Positions 60,231-61,670 of a DNA stretch of 64,000 bases are shown in pieces. Each line of letters opens with the position of its first letter. The first letter of the stretch is position 1. This stretch comes from Hyphomicrobiales bacterium (GTDB taxonomy: Bacteria; Pseudomonadota; Alphaproteobacteria; Rhizobiales; Beijerinckiaceae), in NCBI GenBank assembly GCA_930633495.1, contig CAKNFJ010000001.1, positions 3,185,001 through 3,249,000 of the forward strand, given 5' to 3'. The position numbers and the translations under genes were made by a program. The notes below the pieces were generated by a model. That model made no database searches, was not told the origin of the DNA, and worked only from the letters and a program-made list of their open reading frames with translations.

Positions 60231-60441
60231 CCGGAACAGGCTGGCCGCGAAGAGTCGCCGGCGCGTTACCGGCGGTGCGCGATCGGTGGGCAGCGTGAAC
60301 AGTCGGTCAACGAGCAGGGTTAATGGTGCAGGCCAACGGATCTTCGGGGGAATTGACTTTTTCGCGCGACGGGTGTTCTGACATTGCGCGGTGCAGCGAT
60401 GCGCCGCTTGCGAAGTTTTTCAGCCCTTCGGGATTGGCTCT

Positions 60442-60513
60442 GTGACTGTCCGTCTGACGACGACGAAACTCACGACCAAAACGACGACCGGGAAAGCCGG
60501 TACGTCGCGCTGA
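60442..60513 (+). CDS. Putative Thr/Lys-rich leader peptide of asd
   Basis: A 23-residue frame starting at GTG with GGGA eight bases upstream and ending in TGA. It has 10 Thr and 3 Lys residues, including TTTK, TTK and TTTGK runs, much like the E. coli thr leader in character. It lies 123 bases before asd, an enzyme common to Thr, Lys and Met synthesis, and is followed by a stable hairpin. Ribosome stalling at Thr codons when charged tRNA-Thr is scarce could switch RNA structure. No experimental support; the assignment rests on composition and position. Confidence 0.6.
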   Translation: MTVRLTTTKLTTKTTTGKAGTSR

Positions 60514-60536
60514 CGCTTCGCCTCGGTTCCGGGTCC

Positions 60537-60559
60537 ATCTCCCCCCGGCGGGGGTAGAT
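60537..60559 (+). terminator. Candidate attenuator hairpin before asd
   Basis: ATCTCCCCCC-GG-CGGGGGTAGAT folds into a stem with one mismatch and a 3-base loop, 23 bases after the leader stop codon. No T-run follows, so it may be Rho-assisted or act on translation instead. Confidence 0.5.
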
Positions 60560-60635
60560 CGCCGAACCCGCCCGAACCGGTGCGGGGCGGCCCCAAAGGG
60601 AGACCCGAACCGCCTTATCCGCAAAGGATCATATC

Positions 60636-61670
60636 ATGAGCTTCAAGGTCGCAGTGGTCGGTGCAACCGGCAATGTAGGCCGCGAGATGCTGGACATTCT
60701 CGCCGAGCGCGCCTTCCCCGTCGGCGAGGTCGTGGCGCTTGCCTCGTCCCGCTCGGTCGGCACCGAGGTTTCCTTCGGCGACAGGACGCTGAAGGTGAAG
60801 GCGCTCGAGCACTACGACTTCTCCGACACCGATATCTGCCTGATGTCGGCGGGTGGCGAGATCTCGAAGGTCTGGTCGCCGAAGATCGGCGCGCAGGGCG
60901 CCGTCGTGATCGACAACTCCTCGGCCTGGCGCACGCATCCCGACGTGCCGCTGATCGTGCCGGAGGTGAACGCCGCCGCTGCCGCCGGCTTCTCCAAGAT
61001 GAACATCATCGCCAACCCGAACTGCTCGACCGCGCAGCTCGTCGTAGCGCTGAAGCCGCTGCATGACCGCTTCGGCGTCAAGCGCGTCGTCGTCTCGACC
61101 TATCAGTCGGTCTCCGGCGCCGGCAAGGAAGGCATGGACGAGCTGTTCAACCAGACCCGCGCCGTGTTCTCGGCCGGCGACGTCGAGACCAAGAAGTTCC
61201 CGAAGCGCATCTCCTTCAACCTCATCCCGCAGATCGACGTCTTCATGGAAGACGGCTTCACCAAGGAAGAGTGGAAGATGATGGTCGAGACCAAGAAGAT
61301 CCTCGACCCGAAGATCAAGCTGACCGCGACCTGCGTGCGCGTGCCGGTCTTCATCGGCCATTCGGAAGCGGTCAACATCGAGTGCGAGAAGCCGGTCACC
61401 GCCGACGAGGCGCGCGAGGTGCTGCGTACGGCGCCCGGCATCCTCGTCATCGACAAGCACGAGCCCGGCGGCTACATCACCCCGCATGAGGCGGCCGGCG
61501 AGGACGCGACCTATATCTCGCGCATCCGCGAGGATGCGACCGTCGAGAACGGCCTCGCCTTCTGGTGCGTCTCCGACAATCTGCGGAAGGGCGCGGCGCT
61601 GAACGCGATCCAGATCGCCGAGGTCCTGGTCAACCGCAAGCTGATCCAGCCGCGCAAGCAGGCCGCCTGA
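60636..61670 (+). CDS. asd: Aspartate-semialdehyde dehydrogenase
   Basis: A 344-residue NADP-dependent enzyme converting aspartyl phosphate to aspartate semialdehyde, the branch point to Lys/diaminopimelate, Thr and Met. Motifs: VVGATGNVGREML (cofactor), the catalytic Cys in IIANPNCSTAQLV (about 131), SGAGKEGMDEL, and the catalytic His in RVPVFIGHSEAV. Length is typical. AAAGGATC precedes the ATG. A Thr-rich leader frame lies upstream and a hairpin downstream, so it appears monocistronic. Confidence 0.97.
   Translation: MSFKVAVVGATGNVGREMLDILAERAFPVGEVVALASSRSVGTEVSFGDRTLKVKALEHYDFSDTDICLMSAGGEISKVWSPKIGAQGAVVIDNSSAWRTHPDVPLIVPEVNAAAAAGFSKMNIIANPNCSTAQLVVALKPLHDRFGVKRVVVSTYQSVSGAGKEGMDELFNQTRAVFSAGDVETKKFPKRISFNLIPQIDVFMEDGFTKEEWKMMVETKKILDPKIKLTATCVRVPVFIGHSEAVNIECEKPVTADEAREVLRTAPGILVIDKHEPGGYITPHEAAGEDATYISRIREDATVENGLAFWCVSDNLRKGAALNAIQIAEVLVNRKLIQPRKQAA

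Follow-up and report, generated by a model that had tools for sequence, protein, structure and literature searches.

A Thr/Lys-rich leader peptide frame ahead of asd in Bosea and across its order, a candidate for ribosome-mediated attenuation

In enterobacteria, genes of the threonine pathway are preceded by a Thr-rich leader peptide, in which isoleucine is the second amino acid. Leader-type control can also work through Rho-dependent termination, as in tnaC, or, in the erm-type translational attenuators, through a paused ribosome that sets the downstream stems and the opening of the downstream start. The gene asd occupies the branch point leading to lysine, threonine, methionine, and the diaminopimelate of the cell wall. 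Eight ACC codons are counted in the description of the enterobacterial thr leader (PMC1183508).

Two systems of Sinorhizobium meliloti are closer to the locus described here. One is rnTrpL/peTrpL, a leader-peptide attenuator of the same order (PMC10117765), which differs from our candidate in that its amino acid is Trp rather than Thr/Lys, and in that its sORF is leaderless on an attenuator sRNA. The other is SEP5, a Thr/Lys-rich sORF with six Thr and three Lys codons near its 3′ end, located in the 5′-UTR of the “aspartate dehydrogenase” gene; its translation was seen with a SEP5-SPA fusion on a Western blot, and a role as leader peptide was suggested for it in 2023 (PMC10117765). In its passages on SEP5, that paper gives the sORF as conserved in Sinorhizobium only and describes no RNA switch (PMC10117765). 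The initial annotation of the DNA studied here was not aware of any described leader of this type for asd in alphaproteobacteria, which has to be amended in view of SEP5; apart from SEP5, no other description of an asd leader was found in the searched open-access literature.

In the S. meliloti record that we used, asd is preceded by an annotated 56-aa hypothetical protein, LZK74_33660, which ends in KTTAKTTTKTV and has its stop 113 nt upstream of asd. Its six Thr, its three Lys, and its place in the 5′-UTR fit the description of SEP5, for which we take it. The record itself (CP090106.1, 3.7 Mb) is labelled pSymB; judging by this size, the label is probably mistaken and the replicon the chromosome.

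Leader frame and its conservation in Bosea

The window, by which we mean the whole stretch of 64,000 nt that was analyzed, stems from a Bosea-type alphaproteobacterium whose nearest named relatives are Bosea. The features around the start of asd are as follows:

60353..60377, + strand: putative promoter TTGACTTTT ... GTGTT, present in 28/28 Bosea representatives
60442..60513, + strand: leader peptide frame VTVRLTTTKLTTKTTTGKAGTSR, 23 codons, 10 Thr and 3 Lys
60623..60628, + strand: Shine-Dalgarno-like AAAGGA of asd, assigned by eye; AAGGA-like letters stand there in the Bosea alignment
60636..61670, + strand: asd, aspartate-semialdehyde dehydrogenase, 344 aa (Pfam PF01118 and PF02774)

The Thr-rich, GTG-started frame of 23 codons reported in the initial annotation was confirmed in the sequence. 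It runs from GTG at 60442-60444 to TGA at 60511-60513, and its sense codons include 10 for Thr (positions 2, 6, 7, 8, 11, 12, 14, 15, 16, and 21) and 3 for Lys (positions 9, 13, and 18). The frame does precede asd, at a distance of 122 nt between its stop and the asd ATG at 60636, where 123 bases had been given. Its ribosome-binding site, GGGATTGG, is likewise present, and was judged weak by eye. The reading frame is open further 5′, where another GTG would give 40 codons. The leader region folds with a z-score of −2.2, a value equalled by 3 of 200 shuffles, and a genome-wide search for the codon pattern TTKxTTKT hit a single place, the asd leader itself, with none for the backwards control. 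No comparable leader precedes hom or lysC of the same genome, where the maximum was 3 Thr/Lys per 12 codons with start codons picked by hand.

The locus resembles that of SEP5 in several respects. In both, a short Thr/Lys-rich frame ends some 100-130 nt before asd (113 nt in S. meliloti, 122 nt in the window, and 118-127 nt in the 59 Bosea genomes discussed below), with the Thr/Lys cluster at the frame end; pyrimidines predominate just behind the stop, and the sequence before asd is rich in purines. The peptides themselves differ, sharing little beyond the Thr/Lys run.

Conservation was assessed in a genus set of 67 genomes, all of which contained asd and yielded an upstream region. In 59 of these, asd was at least 91% identical, and these genomes were counted; the 8 with an asd of 78-80% identity were set apart, of which 3 had at least 5 Thr per 12 codons, 3 had 4, and 2 were cut by contig ends. 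Among the 59, the start at the position of 60442 was always kept (GTG in 58, TTG in 1), as was the TGA stop (59/59), and every leader had at least 7 Thr/Lys per 12 codons, in agreement with the conservation in relatives that the initial annotation proposed to look for. In an alignment of 28 representatives, the region from codon 3 to the stop contained 52 gap runs at two sites, all of 3 nt. After the stop, 243 gap runs were found, with lengths of 1 (176), 2 (35), 3 (23), 4 (7), and 5 nt (2). The kept start and stop, together with the 3-nt gaps (even if two sites are few), are the signature of a translated frame that is followed by sequence acting as RNA.

The transcript of asd probably includes the leader, since the promoter-like pair TTGACTTTT ... 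GTGTT is kept upstream of it in all 28 representatives, its TTGAC lying 271-294 nt 5′ of the asd start codon; this argues against an asd transcription start downstream of 60513, which the initial annotation had named as a refutation. A generic sigma-70 scan called no promoter at 60353..60377. A GCAGGGTTAA-like motif at 60314-60323, upstream of the putative promoter, was seen by eye in most of the 28 representatives; it could be part of the divergent gene or serve as a binding site for a regulator. Downstream of asd, after a further 117 nt, begins a gene for an EamA-family transporter (PF00892, 61788-62750, + strand). Since amino acids are exported by some members of the EamA family, a link with asd is possible.

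Spread over the order and class

A survey of the order covered 160 genomes, of which 156 contained asd at an E-value of 1e-60. A total of 109 upstream regions was counted, consisting of 29 returned loci, 79 of 80 fetched regions (L239 was dropped as too short), and the window. A frame counted as a leader if it had 7 or more Thr/Lys per 12 codons and ended 60-250 nt before asd. Such frames were found at 57 of the 109 loci, in 27 of the 48 families examined in the order; in 9 of these 27 families some loci lacked one, and the other 21 families had none in the regions read. When the first locus of each family was taken, 24 of 48 carried a leader, versus none in 19 of 20 dinucleotide-shuffled sets and one in the remaining set. 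The reverse strand, read at one locus per family, contained no leaders. Thr and Lys were the best of 190 amino-acid pairs, with Ala and Thr next at 22, which indicates that Thr carries most of the signal.

Slippage can lengthen runs of ACG or ACC triplets, so that a chance low-complexity frame in GC-rich DNA may be considered as an explanation. The unique TTKxTTKT match, the conservation of start and stop in Bosea, and the excess of 24/48 families over the 0-1 in shuffles make this hardly credible. We are highly confident that an unannotated Thr/Lys leader peptide frame precedes asd, and it very likely lets the ribosome sense Thr/Lys and adjust asd expression. As in known attenuators, this is a short coding frame rich in codons for end products of the pathway; translation has been reported in print for SEP5.

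Outside Thr/Lys content, the leader peptides of different families are unalike, as illustrated by MSIVITTKTKSTTTTATTTVAG in Pinisolibacter and MSLVITTKTTTKTTTATKVAA in Siculibacillus. This bears on a further explanation, in which the peptide itself has a function as a small protein, or in which translation of the frame merely aids that of asd, with no sensing of amino acids. The SEP5-SPA fusion seen on the Western blot (PMC10117765) speaks for it and the dissimilarity of the peptides against it, and we regard this explanation as very improbable.

In the 80 named loci, leaders were present in Bosea, Rhabdaerophilum, Phreatobacter, Pinisolibacter, Siculibacillus, and Chelatococcus, in two Methylobacterium records, and in some unclassified MAGs, and were absent from the records of Bradyrhizobium, Rhodopseudomonas, Methylocystis, and Ancylobacter. 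They were also present in records of Sinorhizobium sp. C101, Shinella, and Rhizobium, and absent from the records examined of Methylobacterium bullatum, Ruegeria, and Sphingomonas. Within Methylobacterium, the leader thus occurs in two loci (L078 and L079) and not in the M. bullatum record (L310), and seems to have been gained or lost within the genus.

Beyond the order, a survey of the class covered 86 genomes, 77 of which contained asd. Among the 28 newly returned loci that were read, each from a different family, 3 had a leader-type frame (L274, L294, and L298). In five loci outside the order (L278, L281, L286, L288, and L292), the region before asd appears to encode the C-terminus of LeuB, and asd may be transcribed behind leuB there.

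The codon pattern KTTTKT was also searched for in 101 genomes of the order. It gave 31 matches in 26 genomes, versus 69 for the backwards control by our own count, so that the pattern is not enriched as such. Of the 30 matches that were read, 7 lay in short frames that end soon after the run, with asd next. Two other places were recurrent, each in two genomes of one genus, and in these the run was not near a stop; no gene other than asd recurred among the next ORFs found after the matches.

Codon use in the leader is distinctive. In the 59 Bosea genomes, 156 of 157 leader Lys codons were AAA, versus 0 of 721 in 30 Bosea asd genes, and AAA was nearly absent from the Bosea genes examined. Thr was encoded by ACG in 347 of 550 leader codons, versus 100 of 552 in the same 30 genes. 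In three genes of the window (the transketolase-like gene, asd, and the EamA gene), AAA made up 4 of 58 Lys codons and ACG 32 of 75 Thr codons, which shows that ACG is not rare in general. With one leader taken per family, the counts were 56/76 for AAA and 85/204 for ACG, and 3/141 and 24/110, respectively, in six asd genes of those loci. Over the 27 leaders, which were chosen for their Thr/Lys content, Lys made up 14.1% of the last 20 codons. The AAA codons may serve sensitivity or may keep the RNA unstructured, and codon rarity alone has been called too simple an explanation (PMC1183508).

RNA between the leader and asd

Four elements were distinguished between the 3′ end of the leader and the start of asd:

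60483..60506, + strand: P1, a hairpin in the 3′ end of the leader (60483-60486 with 60503-60506, 60487-60491 with 60497-60501)
60514..60546, + strand: pyrimidine tract behind the leader stop, containing the 5′ strand used by both P2 and P3, based on the composition over 27 families
60542..60554, + strand: P2, local hairpin CCCCC-GGC-GGGGG; its arms 60537-60540/60556-60559 are not generally kept
60538..60603, + strand: P3, long-range pairing of TCTCCC (60538-60543) with GGGAGA (60598-60603), mutually exclusive with P2

For P1, 86.1% of cells were paired in the 28 Bosea sequences, versus 20-37% for slid versions. One of the nine pairs covaries, being GC in 15 and AU in 13 of the 28 sequences; two others are often disrupted, one in 19 sequences and the other in 10. 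A fold at the frame end, the region of P1, had a z-score below −1 in 14 of 27 families. On the alignment of mixed taxa, P1 failed, with 36.1% of cells paired, which from inspection by eye may or may not reflect a register shift, and P1 is therefore proposed on the basis of Bosea.

The stretch after the leader stop has a marked composition. Averaged over the 27 families, pyrimidines make up 0.80, 0.69, and 0.78 of the first three 10-nt bins, with C at 0.49-0.55 and G at 0.15-0.23 over these 30 nt, and a G-rich stretch follows. Complementary tracts were found in 23 of the 27 families with a leader and in 0 of the 21 without, in a comparison for which the motif lists were chosen after seeing the data and the control windows were set at −110.

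The GC-rich palindrome noted at 60537-60559 in the initial annotation does exist (CCCCC at 60542-60546 and GGGGG at 60550-60554, with arms ATCT/AGAT). Its C5/G5 core, our P2, has its pairs kept in 20-28 of 28 Bosea sequences; the arms are kept in 5-21 of 28 and thus broken in many. P2 is almost without covariation and is therefore better described as conserved sequence than as proven structure.

The competing pairing of 60523-60534 with 60602-60612, noted at the same time, can be drawn in the window (CGGTTC at 60524-60529 with GAACCG at 60607-60612, and GGG at 60531-60533 with CCC at 60604-60606), but it drew no support from covariation. In Bosea, 72.9% of its cells were paired with no position changed on both sides, and the covariation of the whole long-range pairing lay below that of its shuffles. 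Conservation of both stems, the other expectation for relatives, thus holds for the palindrome core and fails for its arms and for this outer pairing.

The pairing extends inward into P3. In Bosea, 92.0% of the cells of the P3 helix were paired, with no double changes. In 17 sequences of other taxa the value was 89.5%, with 3 pairs changed on both sides; among 500 shuffles, 1 attained this paired percentage and 24 attained this many double-changed pairs, and a slid version of P3 likewise gave three double-changed pairs in this alignment. The duplex energy was −30.1 kcal/mol for strands of the same family versus −27.2 kcal/mol across families (p ~1e-4). P2 and P3 were on average only about 1 standard deviation more stable than shuffles. 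In 25 of 27 families, the two have an overlap of 4 nt or more on the strand that they share, which is in part due to how they were constructed.

In several families, the 18 nt that follow the stop looked by eye like good partners for the Shine-Dalgarno sequence of asd; this pairing was discarded, as it was no better within families than across them (p 0.28). By eye, the Shine-Dalgarno sequence of the leader could pair with the segment after the stop, a pairing that we do not put forward as an element of the locus. Among 4227 Rfam families, none matched above its curated cut-off in the window or in 20 loci of other families. A full-length match to the aspS RNA at 60537-60600 scored 19.2 bits against a cut-off of 42.5 (E 0.39-0.62); it rests on two GC-rich hairpins, is absent from the matches in the 20 other loci, and was ruled out.

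Possible modes of control

These elements could be combined in a ribosome-mediated attenuator of asd, with charged tRNA-Thr and tRNA-Lys as the signals sensed. Transcription would begin before the leader, and the peptide, which is mostly Thr and Lys, would be translated by a ribosome. When Thr or Lys is scarce, this ribosome would stall within the Thr/Lys run, where it covers P1 and sits near the pyrimidine tract, favouring P2 and leaving the region of the asd start open. When both are plentiful, the ribosome would finish and leave, so that the pyrimidine tract could pair with the G-rich tract as P3 and hinder initiation at asd. The pausing, the direction of the switch, and the action on initiation rather than through Rho are steps that we infer. 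Taken together, leader and translational output form our preferred, if tentative, reading, to which we give slightly less than even weight.

A folding model in which the ribosome edge was moved stepwise did not clearly reproduce the opening of the asd start by a paused ribosome. Over 27 families, the mean cost of opening the asd Shine-Dalgarno sequence fell from 3.1 to about 2.4 kcal/mol with no clear step, and in some families it moved in the wrong direction. In Rhizobium a drop from about 4.4 to 0.6 required the edge to stand 16 nt beyond the stop. Shinella showed a decrease from 2.5 to 0.5 as the edge moved from 0 to 20 nt beyond it, and in S. meliloti the cost hardly changed. In the window, the cost dropped by about 1.5 kcal/mol with the edge 12 nt past the stop when AAAGGA was taken as the Shine-Dalgarno sequence, and stayed the same with AAGGAT; the former would correspond to a ribosome at the stop codon and not on the Thr codons. 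Where the model did give an opening, the ribosome had to stand on the stop codon or beyond it; pausing on the Thr/Lys codons was thus not seen to open the asd start in this simple model.

This weakness makes Rho-dependent termination in the C-rich tract a live rival for the output step. Leader and sensing would be the same, and a ribosome paused near the frame end would mask a Rho site in the pyrimidine-rich stretch after the stop; once it leaves, Rho would stop transcription before asd. The predominance of C over G in the 30 nt after the stop across 27 families suits such a site, as does the lack of a U-run terminator in the window. A Rho site would not need the conserved complementarity between this tract and the G-rich tract before asd, however, and we consider Rho the less likely output, albeit one to be taken seriously.

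A peptide followed by competing strands is also the layout of the enterobacterial thr operon, the classical case in which an intrinsic terminator attenuates transcription. In the window, however, no U-run follows P2 or P3 and a terminator scan was empty on this strand, which speaks against a terminator-type stop near 60560, as first suggested, and makes translational or Rho-dependent control likelier. T-rich octamers occur between the leader stop and asd in 7 of 27 families; in four of these (f51, f41, f12, and f15) the octamer falls no more than 18 nt behind the stop and so precedes the stems, and in three (f24, f28, and f29) it comes later. One f29 locus (L197) has a GC-rich stem with T-rich sequence behind it, which could be an intrinsic terminator and differs from what is found in the other families. 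An intrinsic terminator as the general mechanism is therefore improbable in our view.

The asd leader is thus different from classical attenuators, with no terminator in the window and with Thr paired with Lys. It shares with thrL a Thr-rich peptide before genes of the threonine pathway, and differs in having Lys in place of Ile, in the gene that follows, in its mostly ACG-encoded Thr in Bosea, and in its lack of a U-run terminator and of an Rfam match. Compared with the erm type, the trigger would be a shortage of amino acids instead of a drug, and the masking and unmasking of the start is not reproduced by the folding model. The broadest form of the proposal, on which we stand evenly divided, is an order-wide and mostly terminator-less attenuator, in which one leader reads Thr and Lys, the latter through AAA, to set asd by a pyrimidine/purine strand switch that acts on initiation or through Rho, and which is old in the order with a drifting peptide.

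If this is true, two end products of the pathway through asd are sensed directly at the gene itself, in a large order whose members are plant-associated and environmental bacteria, and the lone note on SEP5 in S. meliloti becomes part of a broad and testable regulatory class. It also raises the question of how attenuators function in GC-rich genomes without a U-run terminator, and it points to an ability of leader-peptide attenuators to monitor two amino acids together where a pathway branches.
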